Source: Streptantibioticus silvisoli | GTDB taxonomy: Bacteria > Actinomycetota > Actinomycetes > Streptomycetales > Streptomycetaceae | Assembly: GCF_027947535.2 (NCBI RefSeq) | Contig: NZ_JAAGKO020000003.1 | Coordinates: 124,001-188,000 of the forward strand | Reading direction: 5' to 3' | Length of the DNA stretch: 64,000 nt | Shown: in pieces, positions 367-50,051 of the stretch | Layout: every line of letters begins with the position of its first letter | Position numbering within the stretch: the stretch's first letter is position 1 | The notes under the pieces: generated by a model | What the model saw: only the letters and a program-made list of their open reading frames with translations | Databases searched by the model: none | What the model was told of the DNA's origin: nothing | Made by a program: the position numbers and the translations under genes

Positions 367-382
367 GGTGGTCGAGACCAAT
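367..382. promoter_or_regulatory. dre-like (DasR) operator candidate
   Basis: The 16-mer GGTGGTCGAGACCAAT contains the palindromic core TGGTCGAGACCA, one base from the core TGGTCTAGACCA of the Streptomyces DasR responsive element. Against the degenerate 16-base consensus it matches 13 positions. It lies 130 bases upstream of the GH3 start. DasR, a GntR-family sensor of glucosamine 6-phosphate, controls chitin and N-acetylglucosamine genes, so the placement is sensible. Binding itself is inference. Confidence 0.45.
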
Positions 383-512: not shown

Positions 513-1652
513 ATGGACGAGCCCCGCAGTCTCCACGTCCGGCGACGCACCCTCCTCGCCGCGACCGGCGCGGCCGTGGCTGCCGCGTCCGTGACCACCA
601 CCGCGGCCGCCGCCGCGACCCGGCTGCCCGGCGCCGCCCGGCCGGCCACGCTGACCGCCGCGCAGACCGCCGGACAGCGGGTCATCTGGTCCTACCCCGG
701 CCTGACCCCGCCGCAGAGCCTGCTGACCGCCATCTCCTACGGGCACGCCGCGGGCGTCATCTTCTTCGGCGAGAACATCTCCAGCAACAGCCAGATCGCC
801 TCCGTCATCGCGCAGTTGAACGAGGCGAACGCCTCCAACCCGGTGAAGTCCCCGCTGCTGATGATGACCGACCAGGAGGGCGGGCAGGTGCGCCGGCTGT
901 CCGGGGCGCCGACCCTGTCGGAGAAGCAGATCGGCGCGTCGTCCCAGGCGTCCAGCCAGGCGGCGAGCGCGGGCACCGGCGCCGGGCAGAACCTGCTGAG
1001 CGCCAGCATGAACATGAACCTGGCCCCGGTGCTGGACGTCTACCGCACGGCCGGCGACTTCGACGACCAGTACGGCCGCTCCTACAGCACCGACCCGGCC
1101 GTCTGCTCCAGCCTGGGCAGCGTCTTCATCCACTCCCAGCAGCAGACCGGGGTGGTCGCCTGCGCCAAGCACTTCCCCGGCCTGGGCGCGGCGACCGCCA
1201 GCGAGGACACCGACGCCGGCCCGGTCACCCTGACCCAGTCGCTGTCGGACCTGCGCAACATCGACGAGTACCCCTACGCCGCCGCGATCACCTCCGGCGT
1301 GAAGTCGGTCATGGTCTCCTGGGCGATCTACACCGCGCTGGACTCCACGAACCCGGCCGGCTTCTCGTCCGCCATCATCCAGGGCGAACTGCGCGACCGC
1401 CTCGGCTTCACCGGCGTGACGATCACCGACGCGCTGGAGGCCGGCGCGATCCCGTCGTCGATGACCACCGCGCAGCGCTCGGTGAAGGCGGCCGGCGCCG
1501 GCATGGACCTGCTGCTGTGCTCGGCCCGCGACGTCTCGCAGGGCATCGACGCGGTCAACGCGCTGGCCGACGCCTACACCTCCGGGTCGCTGCCCAAGAG
1601 CGCGTTCGACGCCGCCGTCAGCCGCGTGCAGGCCCTGCGCGCCTCGATCTGA
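513..1652 (+). CDS. exported single-domain GH3 glycosidase (NagZ-like)
   Basis: Glycoside hydrolase family 3 N-terminal barrel of 379 residues. GH3 proteins of this size are usually beta-N-acetylhexosaminidases acting on peptidoglycan or chitin fragments. Visible family motifs are TDQEGGQV (119-126), KHFPGLG (219-225) and ITDALEAG with the expected nucleophile Asp306. A twin-arginine signal (RRRTLL, residues 10-15) and Ala-rich stretch predict Tat export. The ATG at 513 is preferred over an upstream in-frame ATG at 381 because GGAAGAGG lies just before it and the signal starts there. The Asp-His pair that serves NagZ as acid/base is not present after KHFPG, so the exact activity is uncertain. 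It converges on the G1 peptidase gene. Confidence 0.85.
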   Translation: MDEPRSLHVRRRTLLAATGAAVAAASVTTTAAAAATRLPGAARPATLTAAQTAGQRVIWSYPGLTPPQSLLTAISYGHAAGVIFFGENISSNSQIASVIAQLNEANASNPVKSPLLMMTDQEGGQVRRLSGAPTLSEKQIGASSQASSQAASAGTGAGQNLLSASMNMNLAPVLDVYRTAGDFDDQYGRSYSTDPAVCSSLGSVFIHSQQQTGVVACAKHFPGLGAATASEDTDAGPVTLTQSLSDLRNIDEYPYAAAITSGVKSVMVSWAIYTALDSTNPAGFSSAIIQGELRDRLGFTGVTITDALEAGAIPSSMTTAQRSVKAAGAGMDLLLCSARDVSQGIDAVNALADAYTSGSLPKSAFDAAVSRVQALRASI

Positions 1653-2830: not shown

Positions 2831-4627
2831 TCAGCGGTCGGTCAGGGTGAACCCGGTCGCGGTGAAGGCCCCGGGGGCGCGGTCGCCGTCCAGGAGCAAT
2901 CCGCCCGCGTCGCGGACCGTCACGTGGGCGACGTTGACGCCGCGTCCGGTGTACTCCGCGTCGGTGACGTACTGCCAGCGCAGCACCAGCGGGCCGGTGG
3001 CGGCCGGCACCGCGGCGGTCACCCGCCACCAGGCGCGGGCGCCGCCGGACAGCGCGGTGACCTGGCCGGCCGGGGCGCCGTCGCCGGTGGCGGTGACCGC
3101 GACGGTGGTCCAGGTGGTGCCGCCGTCGGTACTGGCCAGCAGCGTCAGCAGGTCGTCGCCGGGTTCGGTGTCGACGAACCCGGTCCAGGCGACCTGGAGC
3201 GCGCTGCCGCGGGCGGTGAGCGTGGCGTCCAGCGTCGCGGTGGTGGCGTCGGGGTTGCCGGCGTACCAGCTGCGGCCGCCGCCGGGCACCCGCACGGCCA
3301 TCGCGTTGGCCAGGCCGTCGGCGACCGCCCGGCGCGCCGGGTTGGTCGAGCCCCAGTTGCGGGTGGGGTGGCAGCGGTTGCTGAACTGCAGCGCGATCGA
3401 GCGCGACAGCGGGTCGATGACGATGGTGGTGCCGGTGAAACCGGTGTGCCCGGAGGTGCGCGGGCTGTCCAGCCGGCCGCTGTACCAGCGCTGGTCCAGC
3501 TCGAAACCCAGGCCGTGCGAGTCGCCGGGGAACTTCTGGTTGTAGTTGGTCATCATCTCGGTCACCGACTCCTCGCTGAGGATGCGGTGCCCGGCGTACA
3601 CCCCGCCGTTGAGGACGGCCTGGGAGAGCACCGCCATGTCGGCGACGGTGGAGAAGACACCGGCGTGGCCGGCCACCCCGTCCATCGCCCAGGCGTTCTC
3701 GTCGTGCACCTGCCCCCACACCAGGCCGCGCTGCGGCTCGCCCGGGCCCTGCTCGTACTCCTCGGCGGCGATCCGCGGCTTGAGGGAGGCCGGCGGGTTG
3801 TACATGGTGTCGCGCATCCGCAGCGGTGCGGTGATGCCCTCCTCGACCAGCGTGTCGAGGGTCTTTCCGGTGATGGCCTGGAGGACCTGCTGCAACGAGA
3901 GCATGTTCAGGTCGGAGTAGAGGTAGGTCGAACCGGCCGCGTACTGCGGGACGGTGCCGAGGATCGCGGCGACCTTGGAGGCCATGTCCGGGTAGGTCCA
4001 CAGCGCCGGCGTGGGGTCGGCCGGCAGCCCGGAGGTGTGGGTGAGCAGCATCTGGATCGTGATGTCGCCCTTGCCGTTGCTGGCGTAGGACGGCAGGTAA
4101 CTGGCGACGGTGGCCGACAGGTCCAGGGTGCCGGCCTCGATCTGCTGCATGGCGCAGATCGAGGTGAACAGCTTGGAGAGCGAGGCCAGGTCGAAGATGG
4201 TGTCGGGGCGCATCTCGATGCACTGGCTGTCCGGCAGGAGGTCGCCCGCCAGGTCGGCGTAGCGCACCGCCCAGCCGGCCGCCTCGTGGGTGACGACGAC
4301 TCCGTCGTGGGCCAGCAGCGTGACCTGGCCGGAGTAGAGCGGGTGGCCGGTGGCCGGGTCCGGCACGGTGTAGCCGTTGACGATGTCGATGCCGGCCTGC
4401 AACGCGCCCTGGTCCAGGCCGAGTTCGGCACCGGGGGCGGAGCGCAGCAGGGTGTGCTGCGGGGCGAAGTCCTGCTGCGGCTGGTCGAAGCGGCCGGTCA
4501 GCGGTACCCGCGCGGGCCGGGGCGCGGCGGCGGGGCGCACGGCGGCCCCGGCGGCGGCGGGCACGCCCAGCACCGCGGCGGCGGCGGTCAGGGGGACGGC
4601 GGCGAGGACGGCTCTGCGATCGAGCAT
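2831..4627 (-). CDS. exported beta-lactamase-fold amidase/esterase (AmiE-like) with C-terminal sandwich domain
   Basis: Serine hydrolase of the class C beta-lactamase/penicillin-binding fold, 598 residues. The catalytic set is visible: SLSK (149-152), YSDLN (237-241) and HTG (394-396). RR-x-x-L near the N terminus (RRAVL, 4-8) and an Ala-rich run predict Tat export. The catalytic domain ends near residue 440; the remaining 150 residues look like a beta-sandwich, possibly carbohydrate-binding. In B. subtilis the same fold gives AmiE, which removes peptides from N-acetylmuramic acid, and is encoded with NagZ and NamZ as here. The ATG at 4627 has AAGGAG nearby; an in-frame upstream extension lacks one. 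Other esterase roles remain possible. It follows the NamZ-like gene by 239 bases of cgtcg-rich repetitive sequence. Confidence 0.8.
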   Translation of the reverse strand: MLDRRAVLAAVPLTAAAAVLGVPAAAGAAVRPAAAPRPARVPLTGRFDQPQQDFAPQHTLLRSAPGAELGLDQGALQAGIDIVNGYTVPDPATGHPLYSGQVTLLAHDGVVVTHEAAGWAVRYADLAGDLLPDSQCIEMRPDTIFDLASLSKLFTSICAMQQIEAGTLDLSATVASYLPSYASNGKGDITIQMLLTHTSGLPADPTPALWTYPDMASKVAAILGTVPQYAAGSTYLYSDLNMLSLQQVLQAITGKTLDTLVEEGITAPLRMRDTMYNPPASLKPRIAAEEYEQGPGEPQRGLVWGQVHDENAWAMDGVAGHAGVFSTVADMAVLSQAVLNGGVYAGHRILSEESVTEMMTNYNQKFPGDSHGLGFELDQRWYSGRLDSPRTSGHTGFTGTTIVIDPLSRSIALQFSNRCHPTRNWGSTNPARRAVADGLANAMAVRVPGGGRSWYAGNPDATTATLDATLTARGSALQVAWTGFVDTEPGDDLLTLLASTDGGTTWTTVAVTATGDGAPAGQVTALSGGARAWWRVTAAVPAATGPLVLRWQYVTDAEYTGRGVNVAHVTVRDAGGLLLDGDRAPGAFTATGFTLTDR

Positions 4628-4866
4628 CGGACGGTTCTCCTTCGGGTTGCGGTCCGGCGGCGCGTCGGTGGGGACGCCGCGTCGGCGGGGGGACAGGGCG
4701 TCGGTGGTCCGGCGTCGTATCGGCGGTGCGGGGCCGCACCGGTGGCGGGACGTCACGTCCGCGGGCCCGGCGTCGCGTCGGCGGCGGGCACGGCGGCGGG
4801 GCGTCGCGTCGGCGAGTTCGATGTCGCGTCCACGGCACGGGCACCGCCTTGTCGGGACGCGTCGCC

Positions 4867-6150
4867 TCAGCGGTAGAGCAGGAAGGGTTCGCGGCGGGCG
4901 CGGAAGGCGGCGAGTTCCGCGCTCCAGGCGCCGACGACGTCATCGGTGCCGGCGCCGGCGTCGACCATGGTGCGCAGCCGGCTGGAACCGGTGAGGTCGT
5001 CGATCCAGTTGTCGGGCCGCCAGCCGAAGACCGAGGGGTACAGCCGCCGGGCGGTGACGATCATCGCGACGGCGGTACGGATGGCGTCGACGCGGCGGCG
5101 GTCGGTGAGGTGGACCTGGACGCCGCCGCAGGTGCTGTTGGCGAACTTGTCGAACGTCGGCACGGTGTAGTTCTCCCGGAACCGCACGCCGGGCAGACCC
5201 TGGGTGTTGAGCTCCTGCGCCCAGCGCCAGTCGATGCCGGGGGCGCCGATGAGTTCGAACGGCCGGGTGGTGCCGCGCCCCTCGGACAGCAGGGTGCCTT
5301 CGAACATGCAGGTGCCGGGGTAGAGCAGCGCGGTGTCGCCGGTGGGCATGTTGGGGCTGGGCGGCACCCACGGCAGGCCGGTGTCGGTGAACAGGTCCGC
5401 GCGCCGGTGGCCGCGCACCGGGACGACCTCCAGCCGGTCGCCGAGCCGCTTGCCGCCGCAGTCGGCGGGCAGGAAGAGCTCGTCGAACATCCCGGCCAGC
5501 TCGCCGGCGGTCATGCCGGGCTGCTGCACGATGGGCTTCAGGCCCACCCCGGTGGCGTAGGCGGGGTCGAGCAGCGGGCCGTACGCCTGGCCGCCGACCG
5601 GGTCGGGCCGGTCGAGGACCACGAAGGACGCGCCGGTGGCGACGGCCGCGCACATGGCGGTGTACATCGACCAGGTGTAGGTGTAGAAGCGGGCGCCGAC
5701 GCCGGCGATGTCGAAGACCACGGTGTCGACGCCGGCCTTGCGGTACATCGCGGCGAGCGCGTCGGCGGTGGCGCCGTAGGCGTCGTAGACCGGGATGCCG
5801 GTACGCGGGTCGCGGTAGTCGCCCTCGGAGCCGCCGGCCTGCGAGGTGCCGCGGAAGCCGTGTTCGGGGCCGAAGGCGGCGACCGGCCGGACCCCGGCGT
5901 CGGTCATGTCGTCGACGATGTGGGTCAGGTCGCGCAGCACACCGGTGGGGTTGGTGAGCACCCCGGTGCGGCGGCCGGCGAACGCCTTCCAGCGGCCGGC
6001 GGCGAGCTGGTCGGCGCCGGGGACGACGCCCGCGCGCGGTGCGGTCGGTGACGGGCCGTCGGTCGCGGCGGCGTGTGCCGGGCCGGCGGCGATGACCGGG
6101 GCGGCGATCGCGGAGGCCGCGATGAAGCCTCGTCGGCTGAGCCGTGCCAT
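4867..6150 (-). CDS. namZ: exported DUF1343 exo-N-acetylmuramidase (NamZ-like)
   Basis: DUF1343 protein of 427 residues. B. subtilis YbbC/NamZ of this family cuts terminal beta-1,4-linked MurNAc from peptidoglycan. Conserved blocks are all present: GPEHGFRG (94-101, with the family's invariant Glu97), VVFDIAGVGARFYTY (144-158), VLDRPDP (178-184), PSPNMPT (264-270), YPGTCMFEGTLLSEGRGT (277-294) and PFELIGAP (297-304). SRRGFIAAS near the start is a Tat signal, with cleavage expected near Ala26-Ala28, so it would act outside the membrane. GGGAGGAAG sits before the ATG at 6150. It is transcribed towards the AmiE-like gene and away from the second GH3 gene. The symbol is given by family match, not by test. 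Confidence 0.88.
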   Translation of the reverse strand: MARLSRRGFIAASAIAAPVIAAGPAHAAATDGPSPTAPRAGVVPGADQLAAGRWKAFAGRRTGVLTNPTGVLRDLTHIVDDMTDAGVRPVAAFGPEHGFRGTSQAGGSEGDYRDPRTGIPVYDAYGATADALAAMYRKAGVDTVVFDIAGVGARFYTYTWSMYTAMCAAVATGASFVVLDRPDPVGGQAYGPLLDPAYATGVGLKPIVQQPGMTAGELAGMFDELFLPADCGGKRLGDRLEVVPVRGHRRADLFTDTGLPWVPPSPNMPTGDTALLYPGTCMFEGTLLSEGRGTTRPFELIGAPGIDWRWAQELNTQGLPGVRFRENYTVPTFDKFANSTCGGVQVHLTDRRRVDAIRTAVAMIVTARRLYPSVFGWRPDNWIDDLTGSSRLRTMVDAGAGTDDVVGAWSAELAAFRARREPFLLYR

Positions 6151-6310
6151 GTGGGTTCTTCCTCCCGCGGCGCGTTCGAGGGGCGGCGAGCGGCGAGGCC
6201 CTGACGGGCCGCAAACGGCCGGGGCCGCCCGGGACGGGCGGCGGGGGACGGGCCTCGCGACAGGTGGGGACGGCGGAGTGGATCAAGCGTGCGGATCACT
6301 ACGGCACCGG

Positions 6311-6339
6311 ACGCTACGCGGGTAGCGGGCTTCGGTCAA
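6311..6339 (-). promoter_or_regulatory. candidate HrdB-type promoter of the NamZ-like gene
   Basis: On the minus strand TTGACC (6339-6334) is followed after exactly 17 bases by TAGCGT (6316-6311), a close fit to the Streptomyces vegetative consensus. Transcription would start near 6304 and give a leader of about 150 bases before the ATG at 6150. Confidence 0.5.
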
Positions 6340-6400
6340 TGACGTGAGGATCGTTGACAGCGGGTCAGCCGTCGCGGTCGAATGCGTCGGCACCCGGACG

Positions 6401-6416
6401 CCTGGTCTATTCCACT
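6401..6416. promoter_or_regulatory. dre-like (DasR) operator candidate
   Basis: CCTGGTCTATTCCACT matches 13 of 16 positions of the degenerate DasR responsive element; the left half TGGTCTA is perfect. It ends 20 bases before the GH3 ATG and about 40 bases after a TTGACA (6354-6359), so a bound repressor would sit at or just after the start of transcription. Confidence 0.5.
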
Positions 6417-6436
6417 TAGCCCCCGGAGGCTGGAAG

Positions 6437-8221
6437 ATGCGTGGTCGTGCGGTCCTGCCTCTCCTGCTGGCCGCGGCCGCGGCCACGCTGACGCCGGCCG
6501 CTCCGCCGGCCCGCGCGCACGCTGCCGGGCCGGCCTCTTCGACGGACCGTCAGATCCGGGCCACCATGGCGCGGATGACGCTCCGGGACAAGGTCGGCCA
6601 GCTGTTCGTCTGCGAGGTCCACGGCACCGGCGCGACCACCACCACCGCCGCGCAGGCCACCGCCAACCACCACCTGTACGGCCCGGACGTCGGCAACGGG
6701 GCCCAACTGCTGGCCAAGTACCACCTGGGCGGCGTCATCTACTTCGGCTGGGCCGGCAACCTGGCCGGCCCGCAGCAGATCGCCGCGCTGTCCAACGGCC
6801 TCCAGCGGGCGGCGCTGAGCGACCCGGACGGCGTACCGCTGCAGATCAGCACCGACCAGGAGGGCGGCGTCGTCAACCGGATCGGGGCGCCGCTGGCGGT
6901 CTCCCCAGGCAACATGGCGATCGGCGCGGCCTTCTCCCCCCGGGTGGCCTACGACACCGCGAAGGCCGGCGGCACCGAACTGCGGGCCCTGGGCATCACC
7001 GTGGACGACGCACCGGTGGTCGACGTCAACACCGAACCGGCCAACAGCGCCGACGGCCCGCGCTCCTTCGGCGACGACCCAGCGACGGTCGCCGCGCTGG
7101 GCACCGCCGCGGTCGACGGCTACCGGTCGGCCGGTGTCGCCGCGCAGGTCAAGCACTTCCCCGGGCTGGGCGACACCACCGTCAACACCGACAACGGCGT
7201 GGCGGTCACCGACCGGACCCGGGCCGAGATCATGGCCGAGGACGTCCCGCCGTTCCGTGCCGCGATCACGGCGGGCGTGCAGTCCGTCATGGCCGCGCAC
7301 ATCGTCGCCCCGGCGCTGGACCCCTCCGGGGCGCCGGCCAGCCTGTCGCGGCCGATCGTCACCGGCCTGCTGCGCGACACCCTGCACTACGACGGCGTCG
7401 TCATCACCGACTCGCTCAGCGCCGCCGCCCTCGGCGGCATCGCACCGGACCGGATCGTCCTGGACGCCATCAACGCCGGCGACGACGAGCTGCTGATGCC
7501 CGCCGACCTGCCGTCCGCCGTCGCCACCGTGCTGACCGCGGTGCACGACGGCACGCTGAGCACCGCCCGCATCGACCAATCGGTTTACCGCATCCTGCGC
7601 GAGAAGTACGAACTCGGGCTGTTCACCGACCCGTACACCACCTCCGGCGCGGTCGGCGCGAACGTCGGCACCCCGGCCCACCTGGCCACCATGGCCGACG
7701 CGGCACGCCGCTCGATGACGCTGCTGCGCAACGACGACCGCACCCTGCCGCTGGCCGCCGGCCGGCACGTGCTGGTCACCGGCTGGGGCGCGAGCCCCAC
7801 CACCGCCCTGGCCGCCGACCTGACCGCGGCCGGCGTCAGCACCCGGCGCCTTTATACCGGCTCCCCCGACCAGGCCGCCATCGACGCCGCGGTCGCCGCC
7901 GCCAGGGCCACCGACGTCACGGTGGTCACCACCTACAACGCCTGGGGCGACGCCACCCAGCGCGCCCTGGTCGACCAGCTGCTGGCCACCGGCAGACCGG
8001 TGGTGGTCGTCACCGTCGGCGGCCCGTACGACCTGGCGTACTTCCCCGGGGCGCGCACCTGCCTGGCCGCCTACGGCTACCAGCCGGTGACCCTGTCGGC
8101 GGTCTCCGACGCCCTGCTGGGCACCGCGCCCACCGGGCACCTGCCGGTCACCGTGCCGGACGCCGCCGGGGACACCACGTTGCTGCCCTACGGCTCGGGC
8201 CTGCCGGGCTACGGACGCTGA
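6437..8221 (+). CDS. exported two-domain GH3 glycosidase (NagZ-like)
   Basis: GH3 enzyme of 594 residues with the barrel domain (about 38-390) and the C-terminal alpha/beta sandwich domain (about 400-590). Motifs are STDQEGGVVNRIG (138-150), KHFPGLG (239-245) and ITDSLSAAAL with expected nucleophile Asp325. A Sec signal peptide covers about residues 1-30. The likely substrate is beta-N-acetylglucosaminyl sugar from peptidoglycan or chitin; as in the first GH3 protein, the His of the NagZ Asp-His pair is missing after KHFPG (DTTVNTDNG). The ATG at 6437 follows GGAGG by seven bases. An esterase gene begins ten bases after its stop, with its ribosome site overlapping the stop, so the two form an operon. 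Confidence 0.87.
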   Translation: MRGRAVLPLLLAAAAATLTPAAPPARAHAAGPASSTDRQIRATMARMTLRDKVGQLFVCEVHGTGATTTTAAQATANHHLYGPDVGNGAQLLAKYHLGGVIYFGWAGNLAGPQQIAALSNGLQRAALSDPDGVPLQISTDQEGGVVNRIGAPLAVSPGNMAIGAAFSPRVAYDTAKAGGTELRALGITVDDAPVVDVNTEPANSADGPRSFGDDPATVAALGTAAVDGYRSAGVAAQVKHFPGLGDTTVNTDNGVAVTDRTRAEIMAEDVPPFRAAITAGVQSVMAAHIVAPALDPSGAPASLSRPIVTGLLRDTLHYDGVVITDSLSAAALGGIAPDRIVLDAINAGDDELLMPADLPSAVATVLTAVHDGTLSTARIDQSVYRILREKYELGLFTDPYTTSGAVGANVGTPAHLATMADAARRSMTLLRNDDRTLPLAAGRHVLVTGWGASPTTALAADLTAAGVSTRRLYTGSPDQAAIDAAVAAARATDVTVVTTYNAWGDATQRALVDQLLATGRPVVVVTVGGPYDLAYFPGARTCLAAYGYQPVTLSAVSDALLGTAPTGHLPVTVPDAAGDTTLLPYGSGLPGYGR

Positions 8222-8231
8222 GGAGAATCGG

Positions 8232-9254
8232 ATGCGCACTTCGACCCGGCTGTTACGCACCGCGGTGACCGTGGCGCTGGCCGCGCTGATCGCCGTGCTG
8301 GGCTCCGGCGCCGGGCCGGCCGCCGCCCGGCCGCCCGCCGCCGCCTCCCCGGTGGCGGCGACCGCGCCGGACGGCGCCCGGGTGGTGGCGGCCCGTCAGG
8401 TCGCACCGCGGCAGGTCGACCTGACGGTCGACTCCCCGGCACTGGGCACCACGGCCCAGGTCAGGCTGCTCACCCCGGACGGCTGGCGGCCCGGCGACGG
8501 ACGGCACTGGCCGACGCTGTGGCTGCTGCACGGCTGCTGCGGCGACTACACCAGCTGGACCGCGATGACCGACGTGGCGAACATCCCGCAGCTGCGCCGG
8601 GTGCTGGTGGTGATGCCGGAGGCGGGCAACACCGGCTTCTACAGCGACTGGCTCGGCGACGACGGCTCCGGCCGCGCCCCCGGCTGGGAGACCTTCCACC
8701 TGCGTGAGCTGCTGCCGATCCTGGACGCCTCCTACGGCGGCGGGCCGGACCGTACGGTGGCCGGGCTGTCGATGGGCGGCTTCGGCGCGCTGTCGTACGC
8801 CGCCCGGCACCCGGGGATGTTCCGCGCCGCCGCGTCCTACAGCGGGGTGGCCGACCCGCTGGAGACCCCGGGCGGGCCGCAGAACATCGCCGCCATCGCC
8901 GCCGGTGAGGGCGCCGACGCCGACGCCCTGTGGGGCGACCCGGTGACCGACCGGGCGGTGTGGGCCGCGCACGACCCGTACACGCTGGCGCCCGCGCTGC
9001 TGCGGCTGCCGGTCTTCCTGTCCTGCGGCGACGGCGTCGCGGGACCCTATGACCCGCCCGGTGCTACCAGCGCGTACGAGACGCTGTTCCTGGCGGAGAA
9101 CCAGCACCTGGCCGGGCGGCTCACCGCGCTCGGCGACCGGCGGCTGACCACCGACTTCTACGGCCACGGCACCCACTCCTGGCCGTACTGGCAGCGCGAA
9201 CTGCACCGGTCGCTGCCGATGCTGCTGCGCGCGATGGGCGTGTCCGAGGTGTGA
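8232..9254 (+). CDS. secreted esterase, antigen 85 / esterase D fold
   Basis: Alpha/beta-hydrolase of 340 residues in the putative-esterase family that includes antigen 85 acyltransferases and S-formylglutathione hydrolase-like esterases. A Sec signal peptide occupies about residues 1-32. The oxyanion segment LLHGCCGDYTSW (98-109), the nucleophile elbow GLSMGG (Ser180) and a late HGTHSWPYW carrying the catalytic His are all visible. GAGGAGAA before the ATG overlaps the stop of the GH3 gene, so the two are co-translated. Possible roles are deacylation of sugars released by the GH3 enzyme or general extracellular ester hydrolysis; the substrate cannot be read from sequence. Confidence 0.82.
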   Translation: MRTSTRLLRTAVTVALAALIAVLGSGAGPAAARPPAAASPVAATAPDGARVVAARQVAPRQVDLTVDSPALGTTAQVRLLTPDGWRPGDGRHWPTLWLLHGCCGDYTSWTAMTDVANIPQLRRVLVVMPEAGNTGFYSDWLGDDGSGRAPGWETFHLRELLPILDASYGGGPDRTVAGLSMGGFGALSYAARHPGMFRAAASYSGVADPLETPGGPQNIAAIAAGEGADADALWGDPVTDRAVWAAHDPYTLAPALLRLPVFLSCGDGVAGPYDPPGATSAYETLFLAENQHLAGRLTALGDRRLTTDFYGHGTHSWPYWQRELHRSLPMLLRAMGVSEV

Positions 9255-22884: not shown

Positions 22885-23112
22885 CATGCCTCCAGCATAG
22901 AGACCCGCTATGGAGCACGGCGGGGCACGGCCAAGAGGACTTGGGGGGCCGGACGCGGACGCGGGGACCGGATCGGCTACGCCGATCGGCGTAGCGCGGG
23001 CCGGTACCGGGGCCGCAGGGGGGCCGTTGTTCACCCGGGGTGACCTGTCGTGGACATGTCTAGGCCATTACGCTTCCGAATCCGTCCTCCGATCGAGAAG
23101 GGCCCTTCAGGC

Positions 23113-50035: not shown

Positions 50036-50051
50036 ATTGGACTAGACCAAC
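50036..50051. promoter_or_regulatory. dre-like (DasR) operator candidate upstream of the chitinase
   Basis: ATTGGACTAGACCAAC matches 12 of 16 positions of the DasR element and forms TTGG-ACTAGA-CCAA, an inverted repeat in an AT-richer patch. Starts of Streptomyces chitinase genes usually carry such sites. Confidence 0.55.

Follow-up and report, generated by a model that had tools for sequence, protein, structure and literature searches.

A candidate DasR operator upstream of a NamZ-linked family 3 glycoside hydrolase gene in Streptantibioticus silvisoli

In the window analyzed here (a stretch of 64,000 nucleotides from Streptantibioticus silvisoli, a soil actinobacterium of the family Streptomycetaceae), a gene of the NamZ exo-beta-N-acetylmuramidase family and a gene encoding a secreted glycoside hydrolase of family 3 (GH3a) are transcribed divergently, and a 16-mer resembling the DasR responsive element (dre) lies in front of the hydrolase gene. 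The question raised by this locus is whether the 16-mer is an operator of DasR, a repressor that is released by GlcNAc-6P and GlcN-6P (PMC12680351), and which of the two transcripts it would control.

The NamZ gene (4867-6150, minus strand) encodes a protein with a Tat-type signal, and its identity is unambiguous by Pfam, with the NamZ_N and NamZ_C domains spanning the whole protein (PF07075, E 5e-64; PF20732, E 4e-53). Downstream of it lies a gene for a secreted beta-lactamase-fold hydrolase similar to AmiE and PBP4B (2831-4756, minus strand; PF00144, E 1.6e-60), which also follows NamZ in five relatives. On the opposite strand, GH3a (6437-8221, plus strand; PF00933 and PF01915) is followed by a gene for a secreted esterase-fold protein (8232-9254, plus strand; PF00756), which starts 11 nt past GH3a, adjoins NamZ in five relatives, and is probably co-transcribed with GH3a. 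The cluster includes a second family 3 glycoside hydrolase with a Tat-type signal, GH3b (513-1652, plus strand; PF00933, E 1e-58), whose open reading frame is listed from 381 but has its likely start at 513, since alignments with family homologues begin at residue 1 of that version. Another dre-like site, ATTGGTCTCGACCACC (367-382, minus strand; 13 of 16 consensus positions, score 15.0), is located 130 nt before the GH3b start.

This arrangement resembles the murQ-murR-murP-amiE-nagZ-ybbC (namZ) recycling cluster of Bacillus subtilis (PMC5061867) in that NamZ, an AmiE-like beta-lactamase-fold hydrolase, and a GH3 enzyme adjoin one another. In contrast to that cluster, the genes are divergent here, no murQ, murR or murP lies alongside, and the GH3 enzyme is without the Asp-x-His dyad of NagZ. 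GH3a is related to NagZ and is by sequence nearest to beta-N-acetylglucosaminidases; its closest solved structure is 6k5j (E 1.7e-73), and it scores 147 bits against the NCBIfam hexosaminidase model, under the cut-off of 207. The acid/base loop is altered: where NagZ has KHFPGHGDTxVDSH, GH3a (residues 239-257) and its four closest homologues share KHFPGLGDTTVNTDNG, so that GH3a departs from the general NagZ pattern KHFPGHGDTxxDSH and all five proteins have lost the acid/base dyad, while the 25 family homologues that are more distant all have DSH. NagZ activity should therefore not be assumed for GH3a. Together with its closest homologues, it may represent a NamZ-linked GH3 subgroup with a different chemistry or substrate.

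The region between NamZ and GH3a contains two predicted promoters placed back to back, with 14 bp separating their -35 boxes. The first, already proposed in the original prediction, faces NamZ on the minus strand (6311-6339) and consists of TTGACC (6339-6334), a 17-nt spacer, and TAGCGT (6316-6311), with a predicted transcription start near 6304. We compared this region with five relatives, three of them (L059, L062 and L063) from the genus that includes Streptantibioticus and two (L060 and L061) from another genus, and found this promoter, in the form TTGACC-N17-TAnnnT, at each of the six loci. The second, which the original prediction did not mention, is equally conserved (TTGAC[AG]-N17/18-TnnAAT in 6/6 loci). 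It reads TTGACA-N18-TCGAAT on the plus strand (6354-6383, boxes 6354-6359 and 6378-6383), faces GH3a and the esterase gene, and has a predicted start near 6390. A generic sigma-70 scan requiring at least 9 of 12 consensus positions returned no promoter in the intergenic region because that threshold is too strict, and the conservation of both elements across the aligned loci is the stronger evidence. L060 and L061 have no GH3a between NamZ and the esterase gene, and both divergent promoters stay in place there, the plus-strand one facing the esterase gene; this arrangement is consistent with a single GH3a-esterase transcript.

The dre-like 16-mer CCTGGTCTATTCCACT occupies positions 6401-6416 on the plus strand, between the plus-strand promoter and the GH3a ribosome-binding site (GGAGG, 6425-6429), and ends 20 nt ahead of the GH3a ATG at 6437. 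Both this position and the match to 13 of 16 consensus positions agree with the original prediction; the mismatches with the consensus ACTGGTCTAGACCACT fall at positions 1, 10, and 11. Given the predicted start near 6390, the site would span approximately +11 to +26 of the GH3a transcript. Relative to NamZ, it is situated some 97 nt upstream of the predicted start point, past both promoters, and would thus act on the GH3a-esterase transcript rather than on NamZ. In form it is an imperfect 16-bp palindrome close to A(G/C)TGGTCTAGACCA(G/C)T, as are the natural dre sites of B. subtilis NagR (YvoA), a GntR/HutC-family repressor of GlcNAc genes that responds to GlcN-6P and GlcNAc-6P (PMC4333415). 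In the NagR complex, two arginines touch the GG of both half-sites and G-7 in one of them (PMC4333415). The corresponding bases are kept at the site studied here, as TGG (6403-6405) and CCA (6412-6414) provide GG in both halves, and G-7 is present in one half, read on the other strand from the CAC end. The GG in both halves, together with the different phylum and target genes, sets the present site apart from the B. subtilis system (PMC4333415).

Of the nine UTRA-domain proteins encoded by the genome, the best match to S. coelicolor DasR (4zs8) is L079:1135-1953, which has GntR and UTRA domains, aligns over its full length (E 2e-140), and is identical in the DNA-recognition segment; judged by these features it is a clear DasR orthologue. 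Plain counts of TGGTCTANNCCA were uninformative (14 matches genome-wide versus 13 for the reversed control), and therefore we used a matrix built from 38 bound DasR sites of S. coelicolor (Table 1 of PMC4398421). Strong matrix sites fall at canonical DasR targets, namely chitinase genes and the dasR/solute-binding protein pair, where sites scoring 24.3 and 18.2 lie upstream of dasR beside the divergent solute-binding-protein gene. By these matches the genome carries a recognizable dre regulon. One such site in the window (50036-50051, score 22.4) precedes a minus-strand gene, located at about 49980-48220, whose product is a secreted GH18 chitinase that also has a carbohydrate-binding domain. 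Elsewhere in the genome, the perfect palindrome AGAGGTCTAGACCTCT (score 24.2; G000:C97:16310-16325, loci L034 and L257) is located upstream of an M55 D-aminopeptidase gene, at a distance of about 70 nt, and an M20-type peptidase gene comes next. From this site we predict that DasR controls the breakdown of D-peptides (cell-wall peptides), and our literature search found no paper tying DasR to an M55 D-aminopeptidase. The murQ gene, on another contig, has no dre nearby; such a site would have strengthened the link to the cell wall.

Could the 16-mer before GH3a simply be a chance match, a non-functional sequence in the leader of a gene whose conserved promoter answers to some other control? Its score of 15.9 barely exceeds the lowest among the 38 bound sites, which range from 15.5 to 23.9 in leave-one-out scoring. 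Distinct places with up to three mismatches from the consensus number 21 in the 8.7-Mb genome, or 0.15 per 64 kb with true sites included, and the chance rate of about 0.2 given in the original prediction was therefore about right. By the matrix, 0.03-0.08 matches as good as 15.9 are expected per 64 kb. The window holds four sites scoring at least 14.7, at 50036 (22.4), 6401 (15.9), 367 (15.0), and 23054 (14.8), the next best scoring 8.8; the expectation is 0.05-0.08 in Markov-simulated windows and 0.15 for column-permuted motifs. Secreted-protein genes lie downstream of all four (the GH18 chitinase, GH3a, GH3b, and a PI-PLC-like protein, the last having ACATGTCTAGGCCATT at 23054-23069, about 40 nt before its gene). 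An excess of this size, with every site before a secreted-protein gene and two in a single glycosidase cluster, speaks against chance. We also scanned 1.64 Mb of background (19% of the genome, in pieces from contigs over 200 kb) and observed 15 sites of at least 14.7 versus 4.9 for permuted motifs, 14 of them in gene-start zones versus 1.7, although most of these contigs were chosen for a dre-like or UTRA match, which may slightly inflate the observed counts. Gene-start zones, as drawn by a crude GC3-based gene caller, cover 28% of the scanned sequence. In the score band of 14.7-17 they contain four sites versus 0.9 for permuted motifs (five with the true GH3b start), and a site of this strength near a gene start is therefore false in roughly 20% of cases, conservation left aside.

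Comparison with relatives favors chance. Neither the syntenic orthologues L059, L062, and L063 nor any other GH3a homologue examined has the site; the aligned region of L059 reads CCTGGTCGGATCCCCA and scores -3.8. The original prediction had named absence of the site upstream of orthologues as grounds for rejecting it, and absence is what we found throughout, so that conservation is unusable as support. Likewise, the dre-like site of GH3b is missing before 29 homologues, and the site at 23054 is not conserved in the five homologues found. In contrast, 12/12 close homologues of the chitinase are preceded by its dre, and the M55 dre is identical in five relatives, the full set from the two nearest genera. 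Since core dre sites are stable over these relatives, the site at 6401 was either gained recently or matches by chance. Conservation upstream of orthologues is expected of core targets but not strictly needed for a recent site. In a contig scan for closer relatives, the nearest named ones were Streptantibioticus, at 67-70%, and no genome of the same genus was found. Taking the counts and the missing conservation together, we regard a chance match as a serious though rather unlikely explanation.

The site might also belong to another GntR/HutC regulator with a similar GGTC-GACC operator, given the nine UTRA-domain proteins. One of these candidates is a second GntR/UTRA regulator, L085 (G000:C54:234531-234917), encoded on the same contig. 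The dre-like GTTGGTCAAGACCAAT (C54:235311) precedes the L085 gene and separates it from a divergent SDR-type gene; L085 may be a paralogue resembling DasR that has an operator of its own. However, the bases at 6401 fit the DasR matrix, whose strong sites mark canonical DasR targets, which makes DasR the simpler owner and a different regulator improbable.

We therefore favor the reading that DasR controls the GH3a-esterase operon through a weak, lineage-specific operator at 6401-6416, with a probability of about 0.6; the missing conservation is the main reason for not setting this at 0.8. Transferring binding, repression, and GlcN-6P relief from S. coelicolor DasR, we propose that DasR on the site would act as a road-block or initiation block on the operon and that amino-sugar phosphates would release it, and the secreted glycosidase and esterase would then be made while sugars from the cell wall or chitin enter the cell. 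Direct repression from this site probably does not extend to NamZ or the AmiE-like hydrolase, which are served by their own opposite promoter; for NamZ it was rejected as the main reading, both promoters separating the site from the NamZ transcript. The connection of the locus to DasR in the original prediction thus holds in part: the DasR gene, the dre regulon, the above-chance site overlapping the start of the predicted GH3a transcript, and the second site before GH3b support it, while the orthologues without the site and the position of the site beyond both promoters as seen from NamZ do not.

As in the S. coelicolor DasR regulon (PMC4398421), the genome encodes a DasR orthologue, the 16-mer looks like the dre sites that DasR binds, and a site close to the start codon precedes a gene of the kind represented there by secreted beta-N-acetylhexosaminidase and chitinase targets. 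Unlike the members of that regulon, GH3a is NamZ-linked, a kind of GH3 gene absent from Table 1 of that study, and its site combines a score among the very lowest for bound sites with a lack of conservation. In the literature we searched, with many subscription papers outside reach, there was no report of DasR controlling an actinobacterial NamZ or NagZ gene.

The site at 6401 probably joined the DasR network recently and is an ordinary one among its members; it would be a routine addition to a known regulon, with a known kind of element and a slightly unusual target. We suggest more tentatively that, in this lineage, both GH3 genes flanking the NamZ/AmiE-like module recently gained DasR operators, which would wire secreted muropeptide (MurNAc-GlcNAc) scavenging, beyond chitin breakdown, to the GlcN-6P sensor. 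If the main reading is true, the regulon would have grown through the gain of weak operators, and its core would extend from chitin to a NamZ-linked muropeptide-scavenging locus. This would change no principle, and it would fit the idea of cell-wall-derived GlcNAc signaling through DasR.
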